Of a DNA stretch of 64,000 nucleotides, positions 656 through 58,960 are shown one piece after another (positions within the stretch are counted from its first letter, which is position 1; each line of letters opens with the position of its first letter). The translations under genes were made by a program, and so were the position numbers. The notes under the pieces are model-generated. The model ran no database searches. It saw nothing but the letters and a program-made list of their open reading frames with translations, and was not told the DNA's origin. The DNA comes from Platerodrilus igneus (taxonomy: Eukaryota; Arthropoda; Insecta; Coleoptera; Lycidae), in NCBI GenBank assembly GCA_036346225.1, contig JARFIW010000488.1, positions 3,049,160 through 3,113,159 on the forward strand, in the 5' to 3' direction.

Positions 656-707
<52 letters not shown>
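652..707. repeat. (TA)n microsatellite
   Basis: TA array that ends at the left terminus of the Tc1/mariner-superfamily element. The element sits inside this array, because TA repeats resume at 3016. Confidence 0.9.
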
Positions 708-710
<3 letters not shown>

Positions 711-1160
711 GGTGAATGGTATCGTTCGTGGAAAAATGAACTGGGAGATAGTACACTTAATTTGCAACAAAAATTGTTAATATGACCCCTGTCCTATCTC
801 GATTGGTTTAGGAGTTATGGTTTTTTTTAGTCTGTTTCTTAATAACGCGACTTCTTGCAGTAAAAATTAAATTTCTCGGCTTCTGCTGCAAATAACTAGA
901 TAAACAATCCAATTTTCATAAACTACATTAAATTTCCTATAAAAACAACTATTTCGATTTTTTTTAATTTTAAAAGAAACATTTATTATAAAGCATTAAA
1001 AGGTAAAAAATTACAAAGGAATTTTTTTTAACAAAGTTTAAAGTAATCTTACAGCGAAATTATTTTATCTACAAATGAGCCAATGTCACAAAAACAACCT
1101 CACTTCATAAGGTTTCCAGCAGTGCGAAACACTTTCTATTTGATTTTTAATTTATCAAGT
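708..1160. repeat. Left terminal inverted repeat of the 0.7-3.0 kb transposon
   Basis: Reverse complement of 2565-3015 with few mismatches. Unusually long for a Tc1/mariner-type element, whose TIRs are often only some tens of bases. Confidence 0.85.
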
Positions 1161-1279
1161 ATGGAAATATGGAAACAAATATATGTTTCCAATTCGCATT
1201 AAAATTCGCCCACTGCCTTGATTATCTAATGATCCCACAATGTTTTTCCGGTATTACGGAGGCAATAATTTGATAAATT

Positions 1280-2421
1280 AAATTTTATTTGTATTGTTCA
1301 AAATGCTGACCACCACATCTGATACAGGTTCTTGCTCTTTTCCCATACCTACCACGGTCATGCTCATAGATAGCTTCTCCTTAAGAGTTGACATCCATTT
1401 TCGAACCTTTGTCTCAAATTTTCCAAACTGACTACCTACGTGCTGTATACGTATTCTTTTAAAAAGCCCCATACAAAGTAATCCATGGGATTCAAGTCAG
1501 GCGATCTTGCTGGCTACGGAATAGGTCCTCCTCTACCAACCCACCTTGCGTACTGTTCGTTTAAAAACTGGCGGATACCACGTGTGTAATGAGGAAGAGC
1601 CCCGTCATGTTGAAAAAAGATATCTCTACGAACTTCTAAAAGGACATCTTCCAACAATAGGGGTAGTTGATTTTTAAGAAAGTCCAAATACACTTCTCCA
1701 TTGAGGTTTCTTTCGAAAATATAGGGGCCAATAAGGGTGTGTTTCCTGGGTGTTTCCTATCACAGCCGCCCACATATTTAGGCTGAATCTGCGTTGGAAC
1801 GATTTCTGTCTTATTGCATGAGGGTTTTCATCGGCATAATAGTGGTAATTGTGGAGATTTAGAACGCCAGCATAAAGAGGGACTCATCAGACCACAGTAT
1901 TTTTCGAAAGAAATGGCGCTCCTCAATATCCCGTGCTAATAACCAACGGCAGAACATCAACCTTTGTTGGAAATCTTCGCCTCCGCCTTCCAGAGCTTGA
2001 ACAGGTGTAAAGTGAAGAGGTCGAATATTATTCTTGTGCAGAACATCTACTACTTCCATTGCGAAACTATAACCTCTCTTGCAATATGACGTGTAGAAGT
2101 TGTAGGGTCTTGTTCCACTCGATCCAAGACAAACTCGTCAATTTCAACGTCCAGATTTTGCCCCCTTTCATTAGGTACTTGAAATGTTCCTCCATCAAGG
2201 AACCATTGGTGCGTTCTTGCAAACACGTTGCGACTGGGAATCGGACGATTTGGGAACCGACGTTTATATTTCTCCCGTGCTCTTGTAGCATTACTATTAC
2301 AAAAATCATAAATGCAATGCATATCTGCATATTCTCTGTTGCTATTACAAGCAGGCATCTTAGATAGTAATTTAGTACGTATCAAAGATTTATACGAATA
2401 CAACTGTCTAATCCGTGACAA
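1280..2421 (-). pseudogene. Tc1/mariner-superfamily (DUF4817-type) transposase, broken
   Basis: Reading on the minus strand from about 2421, the N-terminal part (ADMHCIYDFCNSNATRAREK) resembles the helix-turn-helix DUF4817 domain found in this transposase group. The catalytic core follows: first Asp in WSDESLF (about 1877-1900), second in QHDGALPHY (about 1600-1620) and third in SPDLNPMDYF (about 1470-1500). I count 40 residues between the second and third Asp, so it is not the DD34D of classical mariner but close to the DD41D group. Damage: a frameshift near 2045-2060 after the DNA-binding domain, another just after SDESLF, and a TGG-to-TAG type stop at 1514-1516 in the GRGGPIP motif. No active protein can be made. 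Confidence 0.85.
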
Positions 2422-2564
2422 TGCTTCACACTGTCAATGTCACAATTACATGCTATGAACGTATCTGTGCTCTTAAAATTACTGTACATTTTTGTTTTCA
2501 ATTCGCACTGCCTTGATTATCTTATGATCGAACAAGGTTTTTCCGGCATTACGAAGGCAATAAT

Positions 2565-3015
2565 TTAATAAATTAAAAATCAAATAGAAAGTGTTTCGCA
2601 CTACTGGAAACCTTACGAAGTGAGGTTGTTTTTGTGACATTTGCTCATTTGTAGATAAAATAATTTCGCTGTAAGATTACTTTAAACTTTGTTAAAAAAA
2701 ATTCCTTTGTAATTTTTTACCTTTTAATGCTTTATAATAAATGTTTCTTTTAAAATTAAAAAAATCGAAATAGTTGTTTTTTATAGGAAATTTAATGTAG
2801 TTTATGAAAATCTGATTGTTTATCTAGTTATTTGCAGTAGAAGCTCAGAAATTTAACTTTTACTGCAAGAAGTCGCGTTATTAAGAAACAGACTAAAAAA
2901 AACCATAACTCCTAAACCAATCGAGATAGGACAGGGTTCATATTAACAATTTTTGTTGCAAATTAAGTGTACTATCTCCCAGTTCATTTTTGCACGAACG
3001 ATACCATTCACCCTG
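2565..3015. repeat. Right terminal inverted repeat of the 0.7-3.0 kb transposon
   Basis: Reverse complement of 708-1160. The outer end is followed by TA and more TA repeats. Confidence 0.85.
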
Positions 3016-3017
3016 TA

Positions 3018-5200
3018 TATATATTGCTGTGATACCTTTAAAATCCGGGTACTCCGCTTTTCGAATCGAGCCCCTACGAATTGGGCATCAAGAATGCTGT
3101 GAATCCTACAAAAAGCTATTCATTACCTTAACTGTGTTGGTCCATTGACTTTCTTCTGTTAATCGCCTCGGCTGCTCCTCTAGATAGCTTTCATCCTCAT
3201 ACATAAAAAAACAAACACATTCCTACCACAAACAGCAACGTCAACTCTATTTACATCAATATTCACAATACATTAAAATTTCAAAATTAATATTCAGCAT
3301 AAATTTTAATATCGGAAAATTTCAAAATTAAATTTATTATCATTTTAATGTGCATCCAGAATTAAAGTCCTTGTAGGACGCCCACTAATTAATATAACAA
3401 TATATGCAGACCTGAGTATGAGCATGAAAGGGAGCATCTACCACCCCTTTACGTTAATTAACCAGGTTCGTCTAATTGAGCTCAAAGACATACCCAAATT
3501 TTCATCATAATCCAGAACATCAATACTAAATACCCCTTTCTACTTAAACAAGCAAATTTCACCTTAAAATTAAAATTTTATTGTTAGTACAATTTCACTA
3601 CTGTCCATTTTAAGTAAATCAATTATAAAGTTATTCAACACACACCAAAATATCAAAATCCAACAACAAAGCATAAGTTACTTGAAGGTTAATGCACTCG
3701 TGGCCCCAATGTATATCGTCCTCTGTTAATCACACCAATCCAACTGGGTTATGTTTAGGTCCTCGTATTGCTGGTCGCCTTTAAAATTTTCTACATCACC
3801 ATTCATCTAAAGTAGTTTCAGTGCTTTTCCGGAACTCATTTGTGTATATCTGAAGCTTGTTTTGTGGATCCAGACCCGTTTACGAATCATTTAATTATTA
3901 ACACCCACGAAAAATAGCAAAGAAATTCATACTTCTTTCACAAATATTCGTCAAAACTGCCTACTTTTGTGTATTCATTTGTCGTTGTAAATTTTACTAA
4001 TTGGTACAGTGATACTAAACTTTATTACCTTGTATCTTCTTTTCTAAGTGCACTAAAGTACATTCATTGTAGCACGTAAAGAACAAACTGTTTTAAATCA
4101 CTAAAATATACGAGCAAACTTTAAATTATTCTATCAAACTCGGAAAACTAAAAAGCACTGTTTAAAGCATTGAATCAAGTCGCAGATCTAAGAGAGCTTG
4201 TTCATATTAACCTGGGTATATATAGAGGTTAGCCTGTCTGTCGGTCTTGTCCCCAAAACGGACAATTCTTCAGAATTTCGCATGCTAGGTTCCCATTCCA
4301 CAGCCCGGCATGCGATTTTTACGAAATTTGCACTCGCACCAGTTAAATCTCAGAAATTTCGACACGGCTCGCAACGTCTGGAAATAACTAATTGAATTTT
4401 ATACAGAAATTGTTGTTTCTACCTCTGATATTTGCATCCTATTTTCAACCAATTGTGACCCTCGTAACGTTGCTTAAATCACGCCTTTTACTATATGTGT
4501 CTTTGCTTGACGCATTTTCTCTTTCCTTTTCTAACCTGTTCGTATTGGTGCAAATTGATATTCCTTATTATCGATTATTTCAGTCCATGTGGACTATCTG
4601 GGTTAAATAACCCCGTATCGCACCTTCCCGTGAATATTAAGCCCCGGTTTCTCCAAGATTCTCTGAAACCATTTGTTATCTACACAATTTTCGCCGTACG
4701 TGATATTTAAACTACGCAGGTGTTCAAAATAATATTAATTCTCAGAGTTTTATTTTCTGGTATTATAATCTTGGATTTTCACAGACTTTTATGCTTATTA
4801 TTAATAATGGTTTAATTAACTCCAATTAAAATTGACTTCTATCCTTTCATTTTTAGCGAATACAAGTTAAATATTAATTATTATGTGTATACTTTGTTTT
4901 ACTACCGGTTACTTAAAATAGGGATAATTAATATAAATTTTGCACGTAATTTCCATTTGTTTCTTTCCTCGGAATAATTAAGTTACACGCAGAGCTTTTT
5001 AATACTGTTTCTTTTGATATAAAGCGTCTTATAAATAATTTAAATTTCTTAATTTTAATAAAACGAATGAATTTTTATGCTTCACGCTGTTATTTAATAA
5101 CGCGTACCTATTCCAAAAGCTTCTACACAGTGATTAAAATTATTTGATGTGATTATATAATTTTCTACCCTGGTCTAAATATGAGTAATATATATACAGT
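3018..5200. repeat. 2.2-kb non-coding repeat unit, copy 1
   Basis: This block is the reverse complement of 40488-42652 over its whole length, with many scattered substitutions. One end reads TTGCTGTGA after a TA array (3016-3026). The other reads TAGACCAGGGTAG near 5160-5180. No coding frame is conserved. The unit contains a TATA motif followed by a GAGG stretch at 4217, present in both copies. It could be a large LTR, a Helitron-like or other non-autonomous element, or an inverted segmental duplication. I do not recognise the family. Confidence 0.8.
4217..4225 (+). promoter_or_regulatory. Possible TATA box within the 2.2-kb repeat
   Basis: GGGTATATATAGAGG context, isolated from any TA array and kept in the inverted copy (41427-41435, minus strand). 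Conservation of a TATA box in a non-coding repeat would fit an LTR-like promoter; this is inference. Confidence 0.3.
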
Positions 5201-20852: not shown

Positions 20853-21150
20853 CTGCATTTGATTTTCCAATGCTTCACCGGAACATACTACATTGGTCAG
20901 GAAACGAGTACTTTTTACCTGAAAATTTTGAATTTTGACAAACGCTTGCTATTCCACGCAAGATAGTGATTTTTAACGTGCGCAACAACACTCATTCACG
21001 AGACCTATATTTTACCTCCTATCCAAGCAAGAACGTATTTTTGTGAAAAATGTTCGTCCAACATTTTTCAAGCGGTTCGTGTCGAGAATTGAACCCTGAA
21101 CCTTAGGCTTAATAGTCACACGTTAACCAGTAAAGCCGCGGAGCCGCCTG
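20853..21150 (-). mobile_element. tRNA-derived SINE, array copy A
   Basis: Matches the SINE at 58115-58415 along its length: CCAATGCTTCACC end, TACATTGGTCAGGAA, AATTTTGAATTTTG, TTTTTCAAGCGG, then the tRNA-like head ending CGGAGCCGCCTGAA. The head lies at the high-coordinate side, so the element reads on the minus strand. The internal promoter is degraded (B box AATTGAACCC). Confidence 0.8.
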
Positions 21151-21164
21151 AAGTAAGTAACTTT

Positions 21165-21410
21165 ATATTTGATTTCCTTATGCTCGACCTGTAGGTACTG
21201 CATTGGCCAGGAAGTCAGTTTTTTTGCCTGAAAATTTTGAAGGGTAGGGACCTTTAACGTGCGTGACAACACTCACACTGATTTACATTTTATTTCTCAA
21301 TTGAACGAGGGTGTACTTTTGTGAAAAACGCTCGCCTAACATTTTTCAAGCGGTCCGTGTCACGGGACCTTGGGCTTAGTAGTCATATGTAAAGTCACGG
21401 AGCCACCTGA
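21165..21410 (-). mobile_element. tRNA-derived SINE, array copy B, internally deleted
   Basis: Same family and direction as copy A, directly following it. Part of the body (the GAATTTTG to CAAGGTAGGG portion) and part of the head are missing. Confidence 0.75.
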
Positions 21411-21427
21411 ACTAGGTAATCTTATAC

Positions 21428-21720
21428 TTGACTTTTTCCAATGCTTCATCAGAATGTACTACATTGGTCAGGAAGCGAGCTTTTCTAACCTGAAAATTTT
21501 GAATTTTGTCGATTCCTGGCTATTCCAAGCAAGGTAGGGATCTTTAAGGTACGTAGCAACTCACACACCGGACCTACATTCTACCTATCTTCGGAATGAG
21601 GACGTATTTTTGCAAAAAATTCTTGCCTAACATTTTTCAAGCGGTCTACGTCGAGAATCGAACTCAGAACCTTGACATCAGCAGTCATACGCTAAAATAT
21701 CTGATCCGTGCAGCCGCCTA
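21428..21720 (-). mobile_element. tRNA-derived SINE, array copy C
   Basis: Third head-to-tail copy, again with its head at the high-coordinate end (CAGCCGCCTAGAAG). The three copies plus the head fragment form an array rather than independent insertions. Confidence 0.75.
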
Positions 21721-40463: not shown

Positions 40464-40487
40464 TATATATATATATATATATATATA
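40464..40487. repeat. (TA)n microsatellite
   Basis: Short TA array joining the PLE tail to the 2.2-kb unit. Confidence 0.85.
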
Positions 40488-42652
40488 GTACTCATATTTA
40501 GACCAGGGTAGAAAATTAAATAATCACATCAAATAATTTTAATCACCGTGTAGAAGCTTTGGGAAAAGGTACGCTTTATTAAAACCGTGAAGCATAAAAA
40601 TTCATTGGTTTCATTAAAAATAAGAGATTTAAATCATTTACAAGACGCTTGCTATAAAGAAGGAAGCAGTATTAAAATGCTCTACGTGTAATTTAATTAT
40701 TCCGAGTAAAGAAACAAATGGAAATTACGTGCAAAATTTATATTAATTAACTCAATTTTAAGTAACCGGTATTAAACAAAATGTACAGATAATAATTAAT
40801 ATTTGATTAGGAGTCACGAAAAATTAAAGGGTATTATTTTAATTGAAGTTAATTGAACCATTAGTAACATATAATATTTATAAAAGCTTGTAAAAACCCA
40901 ATAATATTCAAATCGTAGAAGTATTATGTTTTAACACCTGCGTATTTTTAAAAGGCTCATTCTGCGTAAAATTTGCAGATAACAAATGGTTACAGAGAAT
41001 GCTGGAGAGACCGTAGCTTAATAGTTACGGGAAATGCTAATAAGGTCGGTTATTTCACAGTCCACATGGACTGAAATAATCGATAATAAAGAATATCAAT
41101 TTGTACCACTCGGAACAAGGTAGATAGAGACAGATAATATGCGCAAGACAGAGACATATATAGTAAAAGGCGTGAGTGGAGCAACGTCACTGGGTTGCGA
41201 TTGGTTGAAAATAAAAGGCAAACTTGAGAAGGAAAAATAACATTTCTGTATAAAAATTAATTAGTTATTTCCAGACGTTGCGAGCCGTGTCGAAATTTCT
41301 GAGATTTAACTGGGGCGAGTGCAAATTTAATAAGAACCGACGCACAGGCGGGCGAGATGGGAACATAGTATACGAAATTCTAGAAACTGGCCGTTTTGGG
41401 GACAAGACCGACAGACGGGCTAACCTCTATATATACCCGGGTTAATATGAGTTTCGCTCTCTTAGATTTTCGAATTGATTCAATGCGTTAAATAGTGCTT
41501 TTTAGTTTTCCGAGTTTGATTGAATAATTTAAACAGTTTGCTCGTATATTTTAGTGATTTAAAACAGTTTGTTCTTTACGTGCTACAATGCAAGTAATTT
41601 AGTGCACTTAGAAAAGAAGATACAAGGTAATAAAGGCTAGTATCACTGTACCAATTATTCGAATTTGCAACGACAAATGAATACACAAAAGTAGGCAGTT
41701 TTGGCGTATATTTGTGAAAGAAGTATGAATTTCTTTGCTATTTTCGGGGGTGTTAATAATTAAATGGTTCATAAACGTGTCTGGATCCACAAAACAAGGT
41801 TCAGATATACACAGATGAGTTCCGGAAAAGCCCTGAAACAACGTTAGATGAATGGTGGTGGAGAAAATTTTAAAAGCGTTGAGAATCAGAAGCCGTAAAT
41901 ATAACCCAGTTGGAATGGTGTGATTAACAAAGGGACGATGTACATTGAAGCTACGAGTGCAGTAACCTTCAGGTAAATTATACTATTTTGTTCAAAATTT
42001 GATGTTTTGGTGTGTGTTGAATAACTTTATAATTTGTTTATTTAAAATGGACAGTAGTGAACTTGTACAAACCAGCAAATTTTTAATTTTAAGGTGAGAT
42101 TTTCTTGTTTAAGTAGAAAGGGGTATTTAGTATTGATGTTCTTGATTATGATGAAAATTTGGGTATGTCTTTGAGCTCAATTAGACGAACCTGGTTAATT
42201 AACGTAAAGGGGTGGTAGATGCTCCCTTTGTACTCAGACTCAGGTCTGCATATATTGTTATATTAATTAGTAGGCATCCTACAAGGACTTTAATTCTGGA
42301 TGCACATTAAAATGATAACAAAATTTAATCTTGAAATTTTCTGATACTGAAATTTATGCTGAATTTTAATTTTGAAATTTTAATGTATTGTGAATATTGA
42401 TGTAAATAAAGTTAACGTTGATGTTTGTGGTAGGAATGTGTTTGTTTTTTTTTATGAATGAGGATGAAGGTTTAACTAGGTGAGCAGCCGAGGCGGAAAA
42501 GAGTAAAGAGGCGATTAACAGAAGAAAGTCAACGGACCAGTTAAGTTAACAGCTTTTTTTAACGTTTCACAGAATTCTTGACGCCCAATTCGTGAGGCTC
42601 GATTCGAAAAGCGGAGTACCCGGATTTTGGTGGTTTCACAGCAATATATATA
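40488..42652. repeat. 2.2-kb non-coding repeat unit, copy 2 (inverted)
   Basis: Reverse complement of 3018-5200 over its full length, from GTACTCATATTTAGACCAGG at the left to TTTCACAGCAATATATATAT at the right. The internal TATA motif is kept on the minus strand (41427-41435). Differences are spread evenly, as expected for two old copies of one element. It lies between a PLE tail and a PLE pair, both joined through TA arrays. Confidence 0.8.
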
Positions 42653-42734
42653 TATTGGTAACAAGATGGTAATATCCTGGGTATGAAGTCCAAATAATAC
42701 TAGTTTATGCAAAATTCAAAATTTAATTTCTTCT

Positions 42735-42773
42735 GCTTAACGTTTCGGCAAAACTTTTTGCCTTTGTCAAAAG
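42735..42773 (-). ncRNA. Hammerhead-like relic, minus-strand PLE copy
   Basis: Minus strand: TTGACAAAGGC, an AAAA/TTTT hairpin, then GCCGAAACGTTAAG. The GAAA box and stem II are kept, but CUGAUGA reads TTGACAA. The same sequence occurs in the partner copy at 47001. Confidence 0.4.
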
Positions 42774-43062
42774 CATCTACAATTAGAAGAGTTGTAATAT
42801 AAAACTAACATAATATAATAGTTAAGTTCCTTACTGTATAAAACCAATATTTGTCAAATTTGAAAAATAGCAAAATTGTCAAAATTTAAAATTAACATAT
42901 GATTACGTTGATCAAAAATTATTAATAAAATTCATTTAGTAGTAAATAGGATGTAGATCTAGTAACAAATTGAGCCTTAAAAACTAATATGTTGGAAGAT
43001 TAATATGGTTGAAGTTTATGATTTAGATTTAATGTTTATGTGATTATTATAAAAGAAAGCTC

Positions 43063-43400
43063 TTAATGAAGCGCATTAGATTTAAAGTGATTTAAATTGT
43101 ATAGAGTAGAATAAAATCTGTGTGTGTCTTCTATATCTTGTTTATTATTTAAACATTGATCTTCTTTGTTTATATAGTACGATTCTAGAAAGAGTCTGGT
43201 TTTGTAATTGGATTCTTTGTCTAATATTTTAATTTCATCATAGGCCGGAGTATGTTTGGTTGTATAAACATGTTTAGCTAATGCACATTTGTTAGAATTG
43301 ATCCTGCAGTCACTTCTATGTTGTGTCAGACGATTCCTCAACCATTGGGAAGTTTGACCAATGTAGGATGCCTGACAGCTACAGACGATCTTGTAAATTA
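43063..43400 (-). pseudogene. PLE GIY-YIG endonuclease, minus-strand copy
   Basis: SYIGQTSQWLRNRLTQHRSD with the CSC pair before it (VCSCQAS) is the start of the PLE endonuclease. The frame is intact for 92 codons from 43341 to 43063 (LAKHVYTTKHTPAYDEIKIL, then FLESYYINKEDQC). It lies in a different frame from the linker and the reverse transcriptase. Confidence 0.88.
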
Positions 43401-43522
43401 AGTTACTGTTTAATAATTTAGGGTAGGGTTCTTTATTCTAGTAAATAGGTTGTTAATTGTATTGTTGTACTCGAATGCAATGGCAATATTAGGTTGTTTA
43501 AGAACTCTTACTATTAACGGAG

Positions 43523-43714
43523 CTAAACCTCGAATAAATGGTAGTTTTTGTATATGGTGGTATTTAAATTGTTAATGTTGTTGGGTGGTAAGTTATTGTT
43601 GTTGTTATTATTGTTATTGGAATTGTTGAAATTGACATTGTCTTGGTTATTGTTATTAATATTTTGAGATAAATTATTGTTAATATTATTATGGAAGCTA
43701 TTGTTTATATTCAA
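43523..43714 (-). pseudogene. Asn-rich linker between PLE reverse transcriptase and endonuclease
   Basis: About 60 residues, mostly Asn encoded by AAT and AAC repeats. It links the two PLE domains but lies in a third frame, as does its counterpart at 46065. The AAT/AAC repeats probably slip and cause the shifts. Confidence 0.65.
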
Positions 43715-43759
43715 AGTGTTGGTGTAGATGAGTTTACGTAAAATTGTTTGGGGTAACCA

Positions 43760-45105
43760 TTGTTTAATAAGGTATTGAAAAGAATTCTTTTATTTTATTT
43801 AAAATTGGGGATCAGAAATCTTTTCGATACGATATTTCATGGCATTGACGGTGTTGAATTTATGTTTTAATGAATGGTTGGAAAGAAAATTCAAATATCT
43901 ACCTGACTTGGTAGGTTTAGTATAATAGTCAAATATTAAAACGTTGTTTGTTCCTCTGATAACTAAGATATCAAGAAAAGGTAATTTTCCATCTATTTCT
44001 GTCTCACTAGTGAATTTTAATTGTTTATCAAAGCTATTGAACGTGGTTATTGTTTCATTGATATGATGGGGTGGGCAGAACAGATGATGTCATCAACGTA
44101 CTTGACGAGGAAAGTCATTTCGTAAGGTAACCGTGGAAGCACAAAATCTAGGAGAGAATTCATAACGATTTGGGCAATAATGGGTGATATTGAGAGCCCA
44201 TAGGTGTGCCGAAAAGTTGGAGATAAAACAATCTTGAAAAACAAAATAAGTATTATTAAAAATCAAATTAACAGTAGCAAGAAAATAGTCAACAGGAATA
44301 TTACAGTGAGGTTCAATGACGGACCATTTTTCTTTAATGATATTAAGGATTAGCGTAAGAGGAATGTTTGTAAACAACGATGTAACGTCTAAAGAGACAA
44401 GAATATGACTTTCGGGAAGTCTAAAGTTTTTGAATTTATCGACGAAGGTAAAACTGTCTTTGATATTGTAGTCTTCAGGTGGAAAAGCTAGTTGAAGTAT
44501 TTTAGAAATGAAAGTTGCTAATAAGTACGTTGGAGTGTTCAAAGTTGAAATGATAGGTCTGAGTGTAAGGAGAGGTTTGTGAATTTTGGCAACCCATAAT
44601 ATTTACCTGGGGTTGAATTATAATTGGATAACTGTTTCTTTTCAGTATCATTTAAAATGCCTTTTTTATGAAGTAATTTTATATGATCATTGACACGTTT
44701 TTGAACGGTGAAAGTAGGATCTTTTTAAAAGTTTATAAGTTGTAGTATCGGTTAATAATTCTAGGATTTATCAACATATTGTTGTTTGTCCATGACGACG
44801 GTTACTGCACCTTTATCTGCTCTTGTTACAATTAATTCGGGGTTATTGGATAAAAACTTTTTAACTTTATAGAATTGTGATCTAAACTGGTTATTTTGTT
44901 GGTTTTTTATTGATTTATTTGCGAAATTCAAGATTATGTTACTAATTTTACCTCTTTTTATGTCTTTTTGCTTTTGTGGTAACTCGGTAGAGTCAAGAAT
45001 AGATTCTATCCGTCCTAATAATTTGCCAATGTGAATATCTTTGGTCGAAGGTGTTATGTTGAATTTAGGTCCTAATGACAGAAAGTTTTTTATTTCGTCA
45101 GGTAG
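43760..45105 (-). pseudogene. PLE reverse transcriptase, minus-strand copy
   Basis: Reads leftward from about 45105. The N-terminal region (GKLLGRIESILDSTELPQKQ, IVTRADKGAVTVVMDKQQY near 44820) is present only in this copy. The core has VSLDVTSLFTNIPLTLI (about 44390) and LVKYVDDIICSA (about 44090). Frameshifts near 44230 and 44075 and several stops in 44660-44760 disable it. It is more damaged than the plus-strand copy. Confidence 0.85.
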
Positions 45106-46068
45106 TTGAACAGCATTTTAAATGATACTGAAAAGAAACAGTTATCCAATTATAATTCAACCCCAGGTAAATATTATGGGTTGCCAAAAATTCACAAACC
45201 TCTCCTTACACTCAGACCTATCATTTCAACTTTGAACACTCCAACGTACTTATTAGCAACTTTCATTTCTAAAATACTTCAACTAGCTTTTCCACCTGGA
45301 GACTACAATATCAAAGACAGTTTTACCTTCGTCGATAAATTCAAAAACTTTAGACTTCCCGAAAGTCATATTCTTGTCTCTTTAGACGTTACATCGTTGT
45401 TTACACACATTCCTCTTACGCTAATCCTTAATATCATTAAAGAAAAATGGTCCGTCATTGAACCTCACTGTAATATTCCTGTTGACTATTTTCTTGCTAC
45501 TGTTAATTTGATTTTTAATAATACTTATTTTGTTTTTCAAGATTGTTTTTATCTCCAACTTTTCGGCACACCTATGGGCTCTCCAATAGCACCCATTATT
45601 GCCCAAATCGTTATGGATTCTCTCCTAGATTTTGTGCTTCCACGGTTACCTTACGAAATGACTTTCCTCGTCAAGTACGTTGATGACATCATCTGTTCTG
45701 CCCCACCCCATCATATCAATAAAACAATAACCACGTTCAATAGCTTTGATAAACAATTAAAATTCACTAGTGAGACAGAAATAGATGGAAAATTACCTTT
45801 TCTTGATAGCTTAGTTATCAGAGGAACAAACAACGTTTTAATATTTGACTATTATACTAAACCTACCAATTCAGGTAGATATTTGAATTTTCTTTCCAAC
45901 CATTCATTAAAACATAAATTCAACACCGTCAATGCCATGAAATATCGTATCGAAAAGATTTCTGATCCCCAATTTTTAAATAAAAATAAAAGAATTCTTT
46001 TCAATACCTTATTAAACAATGGTTACCCCAAACAATTTTACGTAAACTCATCTACACCAACACTTTGA
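45106..46068 (+). pseudogene. PLE reverse transcriptase, plus-strand copy, 5' truncated
   Basis: 320 codons are open. Motifs in order: YYGLPKIHKP, LRPIIS, VSLDVTSLFTHIPLTLI, FGTPMGSPIAPIIAQIVM and LVKYVDDIICSA (catalytic YVDD), then the thumb region FLDSLVIRGTNNVLIFDYYT. The N-terminal finger region is missing because the copy begins at the inversion junction at 45111. The frame ends at 46068, where the Asn-rich linker follows in another frame. Confidence 0.9.
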
Positions 46069-46370
46069 ATATAAACAATAGCTTCCATAATAATATTAAT
46101 AATAATTTATCTCAAAATATTAATAACAATAACCAAGACAATGTCAATTTCAACAATTCCAATAACAATAATAACAACAACAATAACTTACCACCCAACA
46201 ACATTAACAATTTAAATACCACCATATACAAAAAACTACCATTTATTCGAGGTTTAGCTCCGTTAATAGTAAGAGTTCTTAAACAACCTAATATTGCCAT
46301 TGCATTCGAGTACAACAATACAATTAACAACCTATTTACTAGAATAAAGAACCCTACCCTAAATTATTAA
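46065..46370 (+). pseudogene. Asn-rich linker, plus-strand PLE copy
   Basis: Same linker as at 43714-43523, here followed by FIRGLAPLIVRVLKQPNIAI, the conserved lead-in to the endonuclease, before a stop at 46370. Confidence 0.75.
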
Positions 46371-46375
46371 ACAGT

Positions 46376-46717
46376 AACTTAATTTACAAGATCGTCTGTA
46401 GCTGTCAGGCATCCTACATTGGTCAAACTTCCCAATGGTTGAGGAATCGTCTGACACAACATAGAAGTGACTGCAGGATCAATTCTAACAAATGTGCATT
46501 AGCTAAACATGTTTATACAACCAAACATACTCCGGCCTATGATGAAATTAAAATATTAGACAAAGAATCCAATTACAAAACCAGACTCTTTCTAGAATCG
46601 TACTATATAAACAAAGAAGATCAATGTTTAAATAATAAACAAGATATAGAAGACACACACAGATTTTATTTTACTCTATACAATTTAAATCACTTTAAAT
46701 CTAATGCGCTTCATTAA
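46376..46717 (+). pseudogene. PLE GIY-YIG endonuclease, plus-strand copy
   Basis: KIVCSCQASYIGQTSQWLRN begins the domain near 46387; the rest is near-identical to the minus-strand copy, with FYFTLYNLNHFKSNALH at the end. The coding frame is intact from the YIG motif to the stop. Confidence 0.88.
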
Positions 46718-47000
46718 GAGCTTTCTTTTATAATAATCACATAAACATTAAATCTAAATCATCTACTTCAACCATATTAATCTTCCAACATATTAGTTTT
46801 AAGGCTCAATTTGTTACTAGATCTACATCCTATTTACTACTAAATGAATTTTATTAATAATTTTGATCAACGTAATCATATGTTAATTTTAAATTTTGAC
46901 AATTTTGCTATTTTTCAAATTTGACAAATATTGGTTTTATACAGTAAGGAACTTAACTATTATATTATGTTAGTTTTATATTACAACTCTTCTAATTGTA

Positions 47001-47042
47001 GATGCTTTTGACAAAGGCAAAAAGTTTTGCCGAAACGTTAAG
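47001..47042 (+). ncRNA. Hammerhead-like relic, plus-strand PLE copy
   Basis: Same motif as at 42735-42773 in the opposite orientation, near the 3' end of the PLE. Confidence 0.4.
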
Positions 47043-47151
47043 CAGAAGAAATTAAATTTTGAATTTTGCATAAACTAGTATTATTTGGACTTCATACCCA
47101 GGATACTACCATCTTGTTACCAAAATAATTAAGCTAACCAGTCCATTAACG

Positions 47152-52129: not shown

Positions 52130-52897
52130 TAATTATGCAGTGTCGGCAGTATCTTCTCTAATTTGGTTGTTATTTTTAGGTCACGGTCGTGCTTGTTCGA
52201 GTTGTTTATGAATTGGTTAGGAGTTAAGAGTTTAAGAGTACACCCCACATTCCGTTCATTTATCAATCTGGGCAAGAAATACCGATGAATTACAGGAACA
52301 TTGGCGGTGGGCACGCAGGGCGTCCTAGATGACACGGAAATGTGAAAAATGAAGAAAGTATTTTAAATATTATCGAAGAATATTCAAGAGTAAATACTGA
52401 AGAAGCTGCACGCTAGATCGAAGTAGATCACATGAAAGTGCGGCCGAGATTGCGCATGAAACAATTTTGTCATTTTCACGTTCAGTGCCCCCAAGCAGTA
52501 CAACATAGATACCACCTTCAAAAAGTGCATTCCTGTAAATGGCTCTTACAACAACAAACGAACGATCCCAATTTTACCAGAGACATTTTAGTTATGGACG
52601 AAACATTGTTTACTCAAAATGGGATTAGCAATTCTTGGAATACCCACGTTTGGGCTGTGGACAATTCACATTGTATTCGGTAATCAAATTTTCAACACAG
52701 ATTTTTCAGTCAATGAGTGGGAAGTAATTGGAATATTCGTGTGATCCTATGTTTGACTGGCAAAGTTACCAAGACTTTCTGCAAAACCATCTTCCTGAGC
52801 TGTAAGAGGATGTGTAATTAAATATTCGCCAAAGCATGCGGATCTTGCAAGACGAGAAACCTTCTCATTTTAGCCGGCCAGTGCGAGTGTTTTAAAT
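52130..52897 (+). pseudogene. Tc1/mariner-superfamily transposase, 5' part (split gene)
   Basis: From about 52170 the DNA-binding region is readable in patches (HGRACSSCL, then SRVNTEEAAR). An 83-codon frame at 52432-52683 holds WLLQQQTNDPNFTRDILVMD, with the first catalytic Asp in LVMDETLF. The second follows near 52840 in ILQDEKPSHFSRPVRVF, where relatives have QDGAPPHF. The gene is cut after this motif by the palindromic element at 52904 and resumes at 58705. Several stops and frameshifts lie before the cut. Confidence 0.82.
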
Positions 52898-52903
52898 AAT
52901 AGT
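52898..52903. repeat. Left 6-bp target duplication of the palindromic element
   Basis: AATAGT, repeated at 58699-58704. Six-bp duplications are typical of Polinton/Maverick-type integration. Confidence 0.8.
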
Positions 52904-53130
52904 TGTAGATGTGGCGTCTATATAGTTTGGGGTTTCCTGGCTTCTGATTGGTCGATGGCTCCGCCCCAAGCCCCACCATTGTTTTCTGAGTGGTCTGTAG
53001 CCCCGCTCCAACAACCTTACCACTTTTCTGATTGGTCGATGGCTCCGAACAAACAACCCCGTTGCGTTCTAATTGATTGATGACTCCGTCCATTTACCTT
53101 ACCACTTTTCAGACGTCAAGCCCCACCTTC
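52904..53130. promoter_or_regulatory. Subterminal repeats with inverted CCAAT boxes, left arm
   Basis: TGATTGGTCGATGGCTCCG occurs at about 52955 and 53030, with degenerate versions at 53070 and around the GGTCTGTAGCCCCG near 52995. The right arm has the complements at 58490-58670. Such repeats may bind a transposase or a transcription factor; the function is inference. Confidence 0.45.
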
Positions 53131-53460
53131 ACTCTGACGTCACACTAATGACATCGCATAACTCCACCTCCTAACGTAGCAATTGTTACTTTTGGCACAT
53201 CATCTCACTTTTGTTTTTGCCATAACTGTCACTTTGACACCTACGCTATTTTCAAGTACGTCACAATGTTTACTTACCCACCTGTTTACAAATTTTGACA
53301 AATTGTATAATTAAATGCAATTTTACAACAGCCCTCTATATAATTATAGTTAATTATTTTGTACTTTATTGTCTGTCATAGGTCATTCCACCATCTTGTC
53401 GACCATATTTATCGTTTAAGGTGTGTCATCCGTCGACATACCCTGTAAATCAAAAAAGAC

Positions 53461-53531
53461 AACGCTACCGAGGAGTGAACCGTGGCTTCCAGCATACTAC
53501 ACGGATACGCTAACCACTGAGCTATCTAGCA
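53461..53531 (-). tRNA. tRNA-like sequence in the left arm
   Basis: Minus strand: TAGATAGCTCAGTGGTTAGC is a good D-arm and A box, and CGGTTCACTCCTCGG a B-box-like T arm. The anticodon arm pairs poorly. The counterpart lies at 57752-57824. Probably a tRNA-derived relic older than the palindrome. Confidence 0.55.
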
Positions 53532-53598
53532 TAGTCAATGAGTGAATGATGCATGTTTTATTTAATTCTAAAACTAATACATTTTTCTTATCCGTATA

Positions 53599-53603
<5 letters not shown>

Positions 53604-53657
<54 letters not shown>
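53604..53657. repeat. (TA)n microsatellite in the left arm
   Basis: A TA array absent from the same place in the right arm (near 57680), so it grew after the arms formed. Confidence 0.92.
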
Positions 53658-53659
<2 letters not shown>

Positions 53660-54479
53660 CGTATTCTGCTACAGCATTATATCAACGGTGTTAGGTATAA
53701 CACCTTTTAATTTTAATAAGACAAATTGGTATAGCATCTGCGACATTGCGCATAAATATTTCCGGACCATTTAATAAGACTAGCAATAAATAATTCTATA
53801 CGAGGAAGTTCTAATTCTAAATCAGTTAAATAAGGTTATTATTGTATTGCATAATTTTAGAACCTATACAATAATGTGAATTATCACTTGTCCGTCTGTA
53901 TATTTCTAATAACCACTGACTTTTTTGAGACTCCCCAAGATTTATGACCGATTTGAACAACCTTGCGTACAAATATTTATTTCCATAATAGTTAATAAAT
54001 AATAATGGCATTAAATTAAATTAAACCTCACTTGTTCCAATTCTGCTATATACAAGCAGGAAATTCTGATTCGGTTATTTCTAAATTTTGTCGTTTAGAT
54101 TGCGTAATAGTAAGAATAAGTAAAGAAGACCGTCGGTATCTTCTTTTAATTATTCTGCGCAGTAATTGAAATATTGTTGTATAACTGACCTTGACAAGAA
54201 TGCGTGTTACAAAGATACGTATTCAGGTATAAACAAGTTTATTCCTTCAAATAACTTTTAACTGCTTCTGTGTATAAAATAAAATCTATATTGCTAATGC
54301 TGAAACTATGCGACTTATTATTGCAAACTAGACATAATAATTATTATTAAACAACAAATATGCAAGGTGCAAATGTAGCATCGGACAGCTTTTTATTGAA
54401 CCCAATAGTAAGTTAATTGCTTGATAGAATTGAAACTGCGAAATTACTAACAGAAACTATGCGATATTCAAATGATTTA

Positions 54480-54840
54480 AATTTATTAACAACCTAAATC
54501 GTAAGTACCGTACGACTTTTTGGTTAACGCCATATAAAAATTTTGACATATTGACCCGATTAAATAACTGTACAAATACGTTGCGCAGGTATTCTAAAGT
54601 TTATTACGTAAATACGTTACTACTGTACTTGTTATAAGAATCAAATGTTGCTAATTTACCTTCTATTCAAACTAACTTAATTATTGTCACAGTTCTATGT
54701 TAAATATAGCCACTTTACTTGGAAAGATTGTAATTGCTCATAAACTCTACCACAGAAATTATGGTACTTCTTTTAAATTACTTAACATAAACTCTATACA
54801 TGCTAATTAACTACATTGCTAGTGCTCGATTCGGTAAAAT
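54480..54840 (-). pseudogene. Adenain-type cysteine protease, left arm, remnant
   Basis: Aligns with the right-arm protease from its N-terminal part to about the substrate loop, but carries many changes, several stops, and a deletion that removes the Cys box near 54500. Much more decayed than the right copy. A poly(A)-signal-like AATAAA follows near 54400. Confidence 0.6.
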
Positions 54841-55068
54841 CAAGTTGCGTTCCTTTGAGGTTTTGCCGGGGCCAAAAAAGGCCAAAACCTTTTTTATAAG
54901 GTTTGATGTACATGCCGTTTCCGACTGCAATGTCCGCCATTGCCTTGTTATGACGTTCTTTTTCCGCTAGTTGTTCCTTAGCTATTTTAGTATCTGAAAC
55001 TGCTTTTGCAACAGTAGTTGCACCTCCAGTAAGAGTACCAAGGGCACATAGGCTTACAAAAATTGGTT
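54841..55068 (-). pseudogene. Gly/Ala-rich segment of the viral core protein, left arm
   Basis: LGTLTGGA and ALGTLT-type hydrophobic helix, then TKIAKEQLAEKE and MYIKPYKKGF, as in the right arm. The frame is separated from the basic protein by a shift in the G5T5 run near 55080. This arrangement is seen in Polinton/adintovirus-like proteins of arthropods. Confidence 0.6.
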
Positions 55069-55314
55069 TTAGTGGTAAAAACCCCCTGTTTTAGGAATTG
55101 ATATAATACGAGCTGATTTAATAAGCTTTCTTTGTTTTGCTGTATTGGCGGCCATAATTGCTATGTTGATTGCATCCATAATATTAGATCCTTTAGCCCT
55201 TTTTAAAGCTGTACGTGCGTGTTTGATAATGCCTTTAATACATAGCGTACTTCTTATTTTACGTTTCTTGATCAGTTTTCTTATTTTATTGATATTTTTG
55301 GGCACCCATAACAA
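55069..55314 (-). pseudogene. Basic viral core-type protein, left arm
   Basis: 82 codons with a cluster of Lys and Arg (KIRKLIKKRKIRS) then an amphipathic part with repeated Ala and Lys (AINIAIMAANTAKQRK). It lies between PLA2 and the Gly/Ala-rich segment, where related viruses have a DNA-binding core or minor capsid protein. The exact role is inference. In the intact form these parts probably formed one longer chain. Confidence 0.6.
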
Positions 55315-55379
55315 GTTTTACTTTAGCTTTCATTGCGGTAGCTACTCCAAATGCTGTTGTTTTTTCACCTAACGACGCA

Positions 55380-55622
55380 TCACCAGAATTTAGTAGCTAA
55401 CTGAGCTAACTTCGAATCTGCTTGATGGCGTTTAGATAGATCCTTTTCTTTGGAGTATGCAATATCGTGCTCCTTACAAGTTTGGTCTAACTTGTTTATT
55501 CCCTTGTCTCCCCGAGCTAACCGTTTGATTAGTTTTGTACCGGGACCGCAAAATTTGTAACCCAGAATATGCGCTTCAAATGGTAAATTGAAGCGCATAC
55601 AAACTTTGCGGTCCGGGTACAA
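55380..55622 (-). pseudogene. Parvovirus-type phospholipase A2 domain, left arm
   Basis: The frame crosses the palindrome centre and reads GYKFCGPGTKL, the calcium-binding loop, then DQTCKEHDIAYS with the catalytic His-Asp pair, then KRHQADSKLA. These are the two diagnostic PLA2 motifs of parvoviral VP1 and of Polinton/adintovirus minor capsid proteins, where the enzyme breaches endosomal membranes. This is the only arm with an intact calcium loop. The 80-codon frame ends at FW; the next part of the chain continues in a different frame. Confidence 0.82.
55580..55587. other. Loop at the centre of the palindrome
   Basis: ATGGTAAA stands between ATGCGCTTCAA and its complement TTGAAGCGCAT. It lies at the start of the PLA2 frame of both arms. 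Confidence 0.8.
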
Positions 55623-55776
55623 AACTAATCAAACGGTTAGCTCGGGGAGACAAGGGAATAAACAAGTTAGACCAAACTTGTAAGGAGCACGATATTGCAT
55701 ACTCCAAAGAAAAGGATCTATCTAAACGCCATCAAGCAGATTCGAAGTTAGCTCAGTTAGCTACTAAATTCTGGTG
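55600..55776 (+). pseudogene. Parvovirus-type phospholipase A2 domain, right arm
   Basis: Same protein as the left copy, but about 10 bp near 55598 are missing, which shifts the frame and destroys the calcium-binding loop start. The TCKEHDIAYS motif with the catalytic His-Asp pair is kept. It ends at the same FW-stop position as the left copy. Confidence 0.78.
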
Positions 55777-55860
55777 ATGCGTCTTTAGGTGAAAAAACAA
55801 CAGCATTTGGAGTAGCTACCGCAATGAAAGCTAAAGTAAAACTTGGTATGGGTGCCCAAA
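55777..55860 (+). other. Coding-like continuation after the PLA2 stop, right arm
   Basis: In the frame one base off, the chain continues past the PLA2 stop (DASLGEKTTAFGVATAMKAK and onward) to a stop near 55870. The same is true of the left arm, so the shift is older than the arms or was homogenised. Confidence 0.45.
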
Positions 55861-56070
55861 AATATCAATAAAATAAGAAAACTGATCAAGAAACGTAAAA
55901 TAAGAAGTACGCTAGGTATTAAAAATATTATCAAACACGCACGTATAGCTTTAAAAAGGGCTAAAGGATCTAATATTATGGATGCAATCAACATTGCAAT
56001 TAAGGCCGCCAATACAGCAAAACAAAGAAGCATATTAAATCAGCTCGTATTATATCAATTCCTAAAACAG
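55843..56070 (+). pseudogene. Basic viral core-type protein, right arm
   Basis: Right-arm copy of the basic protein: NINKIRKLIKKRKIRS, then NIIKHARIALKRAKGSN. Its C-terminal part is shifted relative to the left copy after AANTAKQR, and a second shift follows in the G5T5 run at 56070. Confidence 0.6.
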
Positions 56071-56077
56071 GGGGTTT

Positions 56078-56330
56078 TTACCACTAAAACCAATTTTTGT
56101 AGACCTATATGCGCTTGGTACTCTTACTGGAGGTGCAGCTGCTGTTGCAGAAGCAGTTTCAGATACTAAAATAGCTAAGGAACAACTAGCGGAAAAAGAA
56201 CGTCGTAACAAGGCAATGGCGGACATTGCAGTCGGAAACGGCATGTACATCAAACCTTATAAAAAAGGTTTTGGTCTTTTTTGGCCCCGGCAAAACCTAA
56301 AAGGAACGCAACTCGATTTTACCGAATCGA
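56078..56330 (+). pseudogene. Gly/Ala-rich segment of the viral core protein, right arm
   Basis: ALGTLTGGAAAVAEAVSDTK, then IAKEQLAEKERRNKAMADIA and YIKPYKKGF, an amphipathic helix and a basic end. The same region lies in the left arm at 55068-54841. Confidence 0.6.
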
Positions 56331-56336
56331 GTACTA

Positions 56337-56681
56337 AGCAATGTAGAATTAATAGAGTTTGTTAAGCAATTAGAAGTACCATATTTCCGTGGAGTGTTTA
56401 TGAGAAACAATCTTCCCAAGAAAGTTAATTTAAAAGAATGTGGTATAATTAATTTAGATGGAATAGAAGGTTTAGGCACACATTGGACCTCTTATAAAAA
56501 AAAGTACCGTAGTAGCGCTGATTACTATGACAGCTACGGAAACCTGCAACCGTCAACAGAGTTGATAAGTTATTTGAATAGTGGGGGTAAATGAAAAATT
56601 CTTTATAACGTTAACCAAGAACAATCGTACGGTACTGTATTTTGCGGACATTTATGCTTGCAATTTCTAAGCAGTACATAG
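56337..56681 (+). pseudogene. Adenain-type cysteine protease, right arm, nearly complete
   Basis: One frame runs from 56337 to 56681, about 114 codons, close to the core of adenovirus/Polinton proteases. The catalytic His lies in GTHWTSY (about 56488), the Asp in DYYDSYGNLQP and the Cys in VFCGHLCLQF (about 56640). The only break is a TGA at 56592-56594. The N-terminal start is not certain because upstream the chain joins the preceding protein. Such proteases cut viral core and capsid precursors during maturation. Confidence 0.8.
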
Positions 56682-57751
56682 AACTGCGAAGTACAGATAT
56701 GCAGATTATAAGCAGCCGTACAAATGGGGACAATGGTCGTAGTAAATGTTGTCAATAAAACCTTCAGAAGCAAACGATAGTGTTTCCGTTTTCTGTTTTG
56801 TTAATTACCAGTAGGTTAAATAATATTATTACATATAATACTATACGATTACGGTTGTTAATTAATTTAAATCATGAGTATCTTTCTGTTATAATTTCGC
56901 GTTCAAATCTATCAAGCAATTACTTACTATTGGGTTCAATAAAAAAGCGTCTGTGCTACATTTGCACCTTGCATATTTGTTGTTTAATAATAATTATTAT
57001 GTCTACTTTGCAATAATAAGTCGCATAGTTTCAGCATTTGCAATACAGATTTTTATTTTTTACAGAGAAGCAGTTAAAAGTTATTTGAAGGAATAAACTT
57101 GTTTATACCTGAATACGTATCTTTGTAACACGCATTCTTGTCAAGGTCAGTTATACAACAATATTTCAATTACTGCACAGAATAATTAAAAGAAGATACC
57201 GACCGTCTTCTTTACTTATTCTTACTATTACGCAATCTAAACGACAAAATTTAAAAATAACCGAATCAGAATTTCCTGCTTGTATATAGCAGAATTGGAA
57301 CAAGTGAGGTTTAAATTAATTTAATGCCATCATTATTTATTAACTATTATGGAAATAATTATTTGTACGCAAGGTCGTTCAAATCGATCATAAACCTTGG
57401 GGAGTCTCAAAAGTCAGTGGTGATTAGAAATTCACAGACCGACAAGTGATAATTCACATTATTGTATAGGTTCTAAAATTATGCAATACAATAATAACCT
57501 AATTGAACTGATTTAGAATTAGAATTTGCTCGTATAGAATTATTTATTGCAGGTCTTATTAAATGGTCCGGAAATGTTTATGCGCAATGTCGCAGATGCT
57601 ATACCAGTTTGTCCTATTAAAATTAAAAGGTGTTATACCTAACACCGTTGTTATAATGCTATAGCAGAATACGCTTTATATATAAGTATACGAATAAGGA
57701 AAATGTATTGGTACTAGAATTAAATAAAACATGCATCATTCACTCATTGAC
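56682..57751. other. Non-coding outer part of the right arm
   Basis: Reverse complement of 53540-54390 with indels. Contains poly(A)-like signals GTTCAATAAAAAAG near 56940 and TCAATAAAACC near 56755 after the protease. No gene seen. Confidence 0.6.
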
Positions 57752-57824
57752 TATGCTAGATAGCTCAGTGGTTAGCGTATCCGTTTAACATGCTGGAGGC
57801 CCCGGTTCAGTCCTCGGTGGCGTT
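57752..57824 (+). tRNA. tRNA-like sequence in the right arm
   Basis: TAGATAGCTCAGTGGTTAGC forms a D arm and A box, and CCCGGTTCAGTCCTCGG a B-box-like T arm. The acceptor ends pair only weakly. It is the inverted partner of 53461-53531. Confidence 0.55.
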
Positions 57825-58100
57825 GTTTTTTTTTTATCTACAGGGTATCTCGACGGATGACACACCTTAAACGATAAATATGGTCGACAAGATGGTGGAA
57901 TGAGGTATGACAGAAAATAAAGTACAGCATCATTCACTATAATTATATACAGGACTGTTGTAAAATTGCATTTAATTATACAATTTGTCAAAAGTTGTAA
58001 ACAGGTGGGTAAGTAACAATTGTGACATACTTGAAAATGCCGTAGGTGTCAAAGTGACAGTTATAGCTAAAACATAAGTCAGCTGATGTGTCAAAAGTGA

Positions 58101-58114
58101 CAATTGCTACGTCA
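58101..58114. repeat. 14-bp target duplication of the SINE, left
   Basis: CAATTGCTACGTCA, repeated exactly at 58416-58429. It marks an independent later insertion into the right arm. Confidence 0.92.
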
Positions 58115-58415
58115 TTACATGTGATTTTCCAATGCTCCACCCGAAGGTACTACATTGGCCAGGAAGCGAGTTTTTTTTTACCTGGAAAATTTTGAATTTT
58201 GCCGAATCCTTGCTGTTCCAAGCAAGGTAGGGATCTTTAACGTGCGTGACAACACTCACACACGGGACCTCCATTTTACCTCTCATCCGAACGAGGGTGT
58301 ATTTTTGCGAAAAATGCTCGCCTAACATTTTTCAAGCGGACCGTGTCGGGATTCGAACCCGGGACCTTGGGCGTAGTAGTCACACACATACCACTACGCC
58401 ACGGAGCCGCCTAAA
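58115..58415 (-). mobile_element. tRNA-derived SINE in the right arm
   Basis: On the minus strand the head has A box TGGCGTAGTGG and B box GGTTCGAATCC, so an RNA polymerase III promoter is well kept. The body matches the array at 20.8-21.7 kb and ends near TTACATGTG. It is the youngest copy in the window and has a perfect 14-bp target duplication. Confidence 0.93.
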
Positions 58416-58698
58416 CAATTGCTACGTCAGCAGGCGGAGTTATGCGATGTCATTAGTGTGACGTCAAAGTGAAGGTGGGGTTTGACGTCTGAAAAGTGGT
58501 AAGGTAAACGGGCGGAGTCATCAACCAATCAGAACGCAGCGGGGTTGTTTGTTCGGAGCCATCGACCAACCGGAAAAGTGGTGGGGTTGTTGGGGCGGGG
58601 CTACAGACAAATCAGAAAACAGGGGTTGGGGTTTGGAGCGGAGCCATCGACCAATCAGAAGCCAGGAAACCCCAAACTATATAGACGCCACATCTACT

Positions 58699-58704
58699 AA
58701 TAGT
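58699..58704. repeat. Right 6-bp target duplication of the palindromic element
   Basis: AATAGT, matching 52898-52903. Confidence 0.8.
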
Positions 58705-58960
58705 TTTTCCAACAGGTAGGAAGGGCCGAGTGAAACAATTTCGAACCCACCGGAGTCACCAGACCTCAATCTCTGTAATTTTTTTGTGGAGCTTCATAAA
58801 TAGCTTAGTTTATGAAACCCCAGTAAACTCTCGAGAGGATTTGGTTGCACGGATAGAAGCAGCTGAAGCAACAATTAGGGATAAACGTGCTGTTACTGAA
58901 TCGTGGATACGCCACGTATAGCTTTGTGTTGATTGCAACGGTGAAAACTTTGAACAGTTT
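58705..58960 (+). pseudogene. Tc1/mariner-superfamily transposase, 3' part (split gene)
   Basis: Continues the gene cut at 52903. SPDLNLCNFF is the third catalytic motif with Asn where Asp is required. SFINSLVYETPVNSREDLVA, then AEATIRDKRAVTESWIRHV and CVDCNGENFEQFL, complete the C-terminal domain. The first line before it has a frameshift and a stop in the GRGGP region. Confidence 0.85.

Follow-up and report, generated by a model that had tools for sequence, protein, structure and literature searches.

A palindromic element in the genome of Platerodrilus igneus, probably an integrated snap-back genome of a chimeric Polinton-type element

The analysis was carried out on a stretch of 64,000 nucleotides from the beetle Platerodrilus igneus (Lycidae; GenBank assembly GCA_036346225.1, contig JARFIW010000488.1, positions 3,049,160 to 3,113,159 of the forward strand), hereafter the window, whose numbering is used for all coordinates given without a further label. 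At 52904–58698 lies a palindromic element of two inverted arms, about 2.7 and 3.1 kb long, around an 8-nt loop; late genes of a Polinton-type virus are repeated in the arms, and the whole is bounded by a 6-bp duplication, AATAGT. A preliminary description, made from the letters of the sequence, had noted the arms, the loop and the duplication, and all three were confirmed. The features of the locus are as follows, with strand in brackets where it applies.

52417..52903 (+), interrupted repeat, left portion, of transposase-like appearance
52898..52903, left copy of the target-site duplication AATAGT
52904..55579, left arm of the palindrome
52904..54503, left terminal region (terminal inverted repeat (TIR) and leader) of the PolB-element family
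54504..54812 (−), decayed adenain relic, left arm
54803..55090 (−), left-arm open frame rich in Gly/Ala
55069..55317 (−), left-arm open frame rich in lysine and arginine
55401..55574 (−), phospholipase A2 (PLA2) domain, left arm (PF08398, Pfam E 3.5e-13)
55580..55587, 8-nt loop ATGGTAAA between a perfect 12-bp stem, its left-arm side continuous with native Polinton sequence
55588..58698, right arm of the palindrome
55598..55768 (+), right-arm PLA2 region, truncated at its start by the loss of 10 nt next to the centre
55840..56040 (+), right-arm stretch rich in lysine and arginine
56066..56365 (+), right-arm open frame rich in Gly/Ala, with a weak, sub-cut-off DUF7179 match
56301..56678 (+), adenain-type protease, right arm, with one in-frame stop
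56689..58698, right terminal region of the PolB-element family, from the chimeric boundary 56688/56689
58113..58413 (−), insert resembling a short interspersed element (SINE), right arm only, tRNA-like (Rfam 22.2 bits, under the gathering score of 29)
58699..58704, right copy of the target-site duplication AATAGT
58705..58900 (+), right part of the interrupted repeat

For comparison of the two arms, bins of 150 bp were used, and identity was 89–99% in 14 of the 18 bins. The centre bin stood at 87% and three bins at 54398–54848 at only 63–83%, and the four bins adjoining the centre bin were 95–99% identical, as against 89–93% in the four outermost. This divergence lies within the range of terminal repeats in non-palindromic relatives (85–96% identical). 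The extra length of the right arm is mostly the SINE-like insert of 0.3 kb, three relatives of which lie at 20856–21674 of the window, and a 0.2-kb stretch; a longer (TA)n tract is present in the left arm only. The right end reads AGTAGATG and the left end TGTAGATG, differing by one base. Within the terminal region, at 52904–53200 and 58414–58698, GATTGGTCGATGGCTCCG repeats, a TATA-like stretch close to the extreme end and a TGACGTCA site were observed, and this part looks promoter-like.

The PLA2 domain reported in the preliminary description was recovered by Pfam, and its identity is certain; 44 homologues were found, of which four are named as insect proteins and three come from possibly contaminated bacterial records, most of the rest being unnamed. 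The basic and Gly/Ala-rich pieces likewise occur in both arms as described, with no Pfam name above cut-off for either and an empty homologue search for the Gly/Ala-rich one. An adenain protease had also been claimed for both arms; it is clear in the right arm, and in the left a decayed relic is all that remains. The right-arm protease belongs to a short adenain-like family with nine public homologues; a ten-sequence profile, built from these and the window sequence, matched human adenovirus adenain (1avp, E 3.6e-5), and Peptidase_C5 was matched by 7 of the 10 members. All nine homologues, used as queries, missed the left-arm relic; the Polinton adenain frame of the same genome detected it (38% identity, E 1.5e-12), part of that match falling in a better conserved neighbouring block. 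At the DNA level the relic is 66–73% identical to the four other copies compared (27–34% private divergence), with sharp borders, well-conserved neighbours, 93 substitutions over 309 sites and 12 indel runs. No match to polymerase, double-jelly-roll (DJR) capsid, penton-like, ATPase or rve integrase frames was found in 52898–58704 by tblastn at E 1e-3, the polymerase queries being the PolB frames of L037 and a Polinton polymerase piece.

The possibility that the arms hold an RNA gene was also examined and was rejected, the Rfam matches there being (TA)n tracts, one weak match across the palindrome centre and the sub-threshold tRNA-like insert, and the one tRNA reported by ARAGORN lying elsewhere in the window. 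By eye, a tRNA-like stretch with A-box-like and B-box-like motifs and a T-run behind can be seen in both arms (53470–53540 and 57755–57825), reported by neither ARAGORN nor Rfam.

The palindrome interrupts a repeat whose left part looks transposase-like by eye, with no Pfam match at 52417–52683. For recovery of the empty site, the two flanks were joined, AATAGT being kept once (240 bp), and used as a query against the host genome (G000; 2.714 Gb, 1723 contigs; copy counts from this genome are lower bounds, the best candidates only having been scored). All 38 non-self matches crossed the junction, at 71–82% identity (40 scored of 59 candidates), and two of them extended over exactly 240 bp; they are diverged copies of the interrupted repeat and not the orthologous site. 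Because other copies of the repeat run across the joined flanks uninterrupted, AATAGT is a true target-site duplication, and the palindrome was inserted as a single piece into a pre-existing repeat.

The late genes and the ends of the element trace to two different families. The first is an abundant Polinton, represented by an 8-kb stretch (L055) in which Pfam identified a DJR-type capsid (E 6.1e-45), an rve integrase (4.5e-16), an A32-like ATPase (3.3e-5) and PLA2 (1.7e-11), with adenain recognised by DNA match; a second stretch (L054) is 96–97% identical to it across most of its length. Searches of the host genome with adenain and with the ATPase gave 6410 and 11778 first-look candidates, respectively, which are not confirmed copies. 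The best 150 of each, a favourable sample, were 92–100% and 90–100% identical, and 144 and 140 of the 150, by our count, were stop-free. To this Polinton the late-gene block 55598–56688 is 91% identical. Outward of 56689 the sequence is that of a second family, one seen in elements that carry a B-type polymerase (PF03175, E 1.2e-37). A search for a solved relative of this PolB by sequence found none, and its match to one Polinton polymerase piece, which was recognised by eye through YTDTDS and left unnamed by Pfam, was just a 12-residue motif (E 0.087).

A query of 211 bases across 56688/56689 gave 859 candidates, and among the best 40 the junction was contained in four loci (the window, C69, C280 and C1429). 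The remaining rows matched on one side, 27 on the outer side only and 9 on the adenain side only, proportions that mean little in such a sample, and the break fell at query position 99/100–102 in 36 of 36. The element is a chimera, its ends and late genes coming from two families joined at 56688/56689, at the end of adenain. The earlier assignment as a Polinton-type, non-autonomous palindrome has held up; the single parental element assumed with it has not.

Multi-copy ends and integrase-bearing relatives, for which the preliminary description had proposed to search, were both found in the host genome. The 27-nt end, with up to 3 mismatches allowed, gave 39 matches (control, 0 and 0), of which 22 formed 11 inward-facing pairs less than 20 kb apart and 17 were unpaired. 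At 7 of the 11 pairs, inverted duplications of varying depth reach into genes (C488 with the window, C979, C1084, C1220, C1706, C89 and C1429), those at C1220 and C1706 being called from coordinates alone. The remaining pairs hold one PolB (C1215, C1009), one PolB piece (C385) or PolB parts in opposite orientation (C361, where 19.3 kb lie between the two ends, 449551–468842).

Ten elements with both ends seen were examined, the window and nine others. In three of these the arms consist of the TIR and the PolB start, at 95–96.5% identity in C979, 94.5% in C89 and 94–97% over about 6.4 kb aligned, with inserts, in C1084; C1547 is a partial palindrome of the same parts. The arms of C1429 are instead formed from the late-gene end and extend into the ATPase (86–93% identical), the block behind the ATPase giving shorter matches on both strands and the left arm being without PLA2–adenain. 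C1215, C166 and C453 have terminal repeats only, and C1083 carries two PolB parts in opposite orientation. The target duplication is 6/6 at the window, C979, C1215, C166 and C1083 and 5/6 at C1429 and C1084; the terminal motif is missing at one end in C453 and C1547. Palindromes built on the polymerase end and others built on the late-gene end both occur in this genome.

The point from which the duplications start was indicated by DNA searches with two parts of PolB. With the PolB start, 41 rows were obtained (40 scored of 95 candidates); after 7 rows at 69–70% had been dropped and the second C89 piece counted with its neighbour, 33 rows at 78% or more were left. These comprised convergent inverted pairs at seven loci (C1084, C1220, C979, C1665, C1706, C89 and C1647), 17 single copies, one divergent pair (C361) and no tandem pair, where 0.008 chance neighbours were expected and the probability of seven or more convergent among eight is 0.0004. 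The later PolB part, by comparison, formed one inverted pair (C1084) among 20 loci (21 rows with at least 87% identity, after removal of 19 at 75–76%), from which it follows that the duplication starts at the terminus and reaches inward to a variable extent.

At the centre of the window's palindrome, the left arm tracks native Polinton up to and including TTCAAATGGTAAATTG, where it turns and continues as AAGCGCATA. If TTG pairs with CAA, as CAA(N8)TTG, this turn is accounted for with no bases lost or added; 10 nt are missing from the right arm beside the centre. The fold of C979 has three shared bases, GGT.

We put at roughly 0.7 the probability that the element is an integrated snap-back genome of a Polinton-type element, akin to a defective-interfering genome and formed during replication. 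To begin with, the late-gene block of an integrase-bearing Polinton would have been joined at the end of adenain to the terminal region of the second family; the junction is common to at least four loci, and the manner of joining is one that we infer. As the centre suggests, a strand copied inward from the terminus would then have halted in PLA2, folded back through the CAA/TTG pairing with its 8-nt loop, and copied itself out to the terminus, so that the same end came to stand twice. By such self-priming, a chimera with unlike ends may have gained two matched replication origins. The palindrome, presumably formed before integration here as in each other case, entered the host repeat whole with its 6-bp duplication, the enzyme being perhaps the Polinton integrase acting in trans, since both families apparently start AGTAG. 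The arms would have diverged afterwards, one of them gaining the SINE-like insert. The same kind of event, starting at the polymerase end or the late-gene end, would yield the other palindromes of different depth.

Several points weigh against this reading. The proposed mechanism is drawn from sequence, and the palindromes are known here from integrated copies and not from extrachromosomal or packaged DNA. Of the three folds looked at closely, that of C89 has an 8-nt insertion instead of pairing, a 3-nt pairing could be chance, and the window's centre was spanned solely by the window among the best 40 of 1357 candidates. At two of the four loci with the junction, the portions read show no palindrome: C69 continues, as the Polinton does, through ATPase and integrase as far as the start of its contig, and C280 loses similarity after 1.3 kb. 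Among the five palindromes read, the target duplication was 6/6 in two, 5/6 in two and not clear in C89, and the non-palindromic members C1215 and C166 also have clean 6/6 duplications. The shared AGTAG start is drawn from two Polinton ends, AGTAGT and AGTAGA, and the Polinton end was placed by eye, at the point where two copies diverge, for one side only. Finally, the divergence of the left-arm adenain is not what two equal arms would show by ageing alone; this block may owe its state to gene conversion acting in patches on an old arm, to introgression or to error-prone copying confined to it.

The alternative that survives best, if an unlikely one, is expansion of the terminal repeats, whereby recombination between two linear genomes replaced one end by the inverted other end, with no self-priming and with integration as outlined above. 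Asymmetric cases with unique middles of about 0.9–3.4 kb (C979, C89 and C1084), the partial case C1547 and the differing depth would all be accommodated. The window's 8-nt loop, the native sequence up to the turn and the CAA/TTG pairing are, however, what fold-back priming predicts, and the joining of two molecules is a less natural source of such a loop and turn.

We consider it far less probable that the palindrome was made in the chromosome once the element had integrated, through inverted duplication or gene conversion. Some exchange between the arms is suggested by the higher identity near the centre (95–99% against 89–93%) and by the one very diverged block. The terminus of the element nevertheless stands at both outer ends, and a single duplication pair encloses the whole, by which an origin after integration is largely refuted; other loci show the same arrangement with duplications of their own.

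Comparably little credence is given to a stable family in which the palindrome itself propagates, as the preliminary description had supposed. The multi-copy ends and the inverted duplications at 7 of the 11 end-paired loci would be in keeping with such a family, but fold points vary among the palindromes read, and the centre was found once among the best 40 of 1357 candidates, so that replication of the palindrome after its formation lacks support; what recurs is palindromes of different depth. An artefact of assembly or amplification, to which a second long palindrome in the same window might point (Penelope-like, 42651–47127, arms 97–99% identical), is the least credible of all, because false hairpin joining would yield near-identical arms, whereas these differ by 1–11% in most bins and by indels, the SINE-like insert, the (TA)n difference and the decayed block, and the target duplication bounds the whole.

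Should the snap-back reading hold, integrated and datable palindromes of this kind would be direct traces of the copying of Polinton-type DNA from its ends, away from the chromosome, and would also record fold-back errors and perhaps integration in trans; they further provide a way to account for long inverted viral repeats, which may be mistaken for assembly errors in annotation. A broader picture is possible and much more tentative, namely that the genome archives an outbreak between two virus-like lineages, the Polinton and a second one that had a polymerase of its own but borrowed the Polinton integrase and perhaps its capsid, with recombinants and frequent snap-back half genomes from both ends integrated like ordinary proviruses. 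On that picture, defective-interfering genomes of a protein-primed DNA virus would be readable as fossils, and folding back may be a way for a chimera with two unlike ends to regain two matched origins.

Some further observations were made on the two families and on the rest of the window. In seven stretches (L035, L037, L039, L040, L044, L045 and L053) the PolB frame is split at one common site by about 50–55 bases that start GTA(A/T)GTA and end CAG or TAG, like a spliceosomal intron. The split is also present in subfamilies about 50–70% identical in protein, and a related PolB (G000:C404:22435-25419, 51% identical) is a single open frame of 1276 aa. Convergent ATPase copies 7 kb apart (G000:C1554:320310 and 327454) are possibly a palindrome inside the abundant Polinton family. 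The second long palindrome of the window carries Penelope-like reverse transcriptase and GIY-YIG frames in its inverted arms; in addition, an inverted repeat lies at 699–3024 (arms 97–98% identical, with 1.4 kb between the inner arms), and inverted copies of one repeat, about 35–39 kb apart, lie at 3205–5196 and 40480–42451.

Searches were extended to viral contigs, where the adenain alignment found one distant virus (L001, 41% identity); there, as judged by eye, adenain stands after a Gly/Ala-rich protein and before an ATPase-like one. Two contigs found with the PLA2 alignment (L002 and L003) were phage-like by eye and were set aside, their context being judged unrelated. In the viral contigs, single PLA2 and Gly/Ala pieces gave no confirmed match and the exact end pattern gave 0 matches; no related locus was confirmed in contigs of other genomes, and none was found in phages. 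Among the open-licence papers listed, none describes in its title or the start of its abstract a palindromic or snap-back Polinton, integrated or otherwise.

The Polintons or Mavericks (polintoviruses, adintoviruses) are among the closest known systems. Excerpts of one study report 6-bp target duplications and AGT-type ends for vertebrate Mavericks, and a protein-primed polymerase with which replication from the ends is expected (PMC8097293). The element shares with them its 6-bp target duplication, TIRs beginning AGT (the left one base off), adenain (interrupted on the right, a relic on the left) and the late-gene block that is 91% identical to the genome's own Polinton. It differs in being palindromic, in taking its ends from another family than its late genes, and in having no polymerase, integrase, ATPase or capsid gene recognisable by tblastn; PolB is carried by the relatives that have its ends, and integrase, capsid and ATPase by the abundant Polinton.

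Foldback transposons such as FB, Galileo and Tetris resemble the element in their long inverted arms with little between them. Such transposons have 7–9-bp target duplications and a transposase-based origin, whereas the element has a 6-bp duplication and viral genes in its arms. Tetris is the subject of PMC4079207. In yeast, foldback priming at DNA ends gives rise to hairpins and inverted duplications, according to excerpts of two papers (PMC10622511, PMC7467729). That process differs in acting at chromosomal breaks and not in viral replication.

Defective adenovirus DNA with inverted ends arises under protein-primed replication and has palindromic end duplications; it is known as encapsidated DNA and not as genomic insertions, which is what the copies described here are. 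Populations of adeno-associated virus (AAV) contain self-complementary snap-back half genomes that derive from either end, are symmetric or asymmetric, and retain the terminal repeat, as given in excerpts of PMC8235507. Snap-back genomes make up a main class of AAV defective particles. The likeness lies in an inverted duplication that is anchored at the terminus and varies in depth among loci; the difference lies in the type of virus and its mode of replication, and in that the copies here are host-genome insertions flanked by target duplications.

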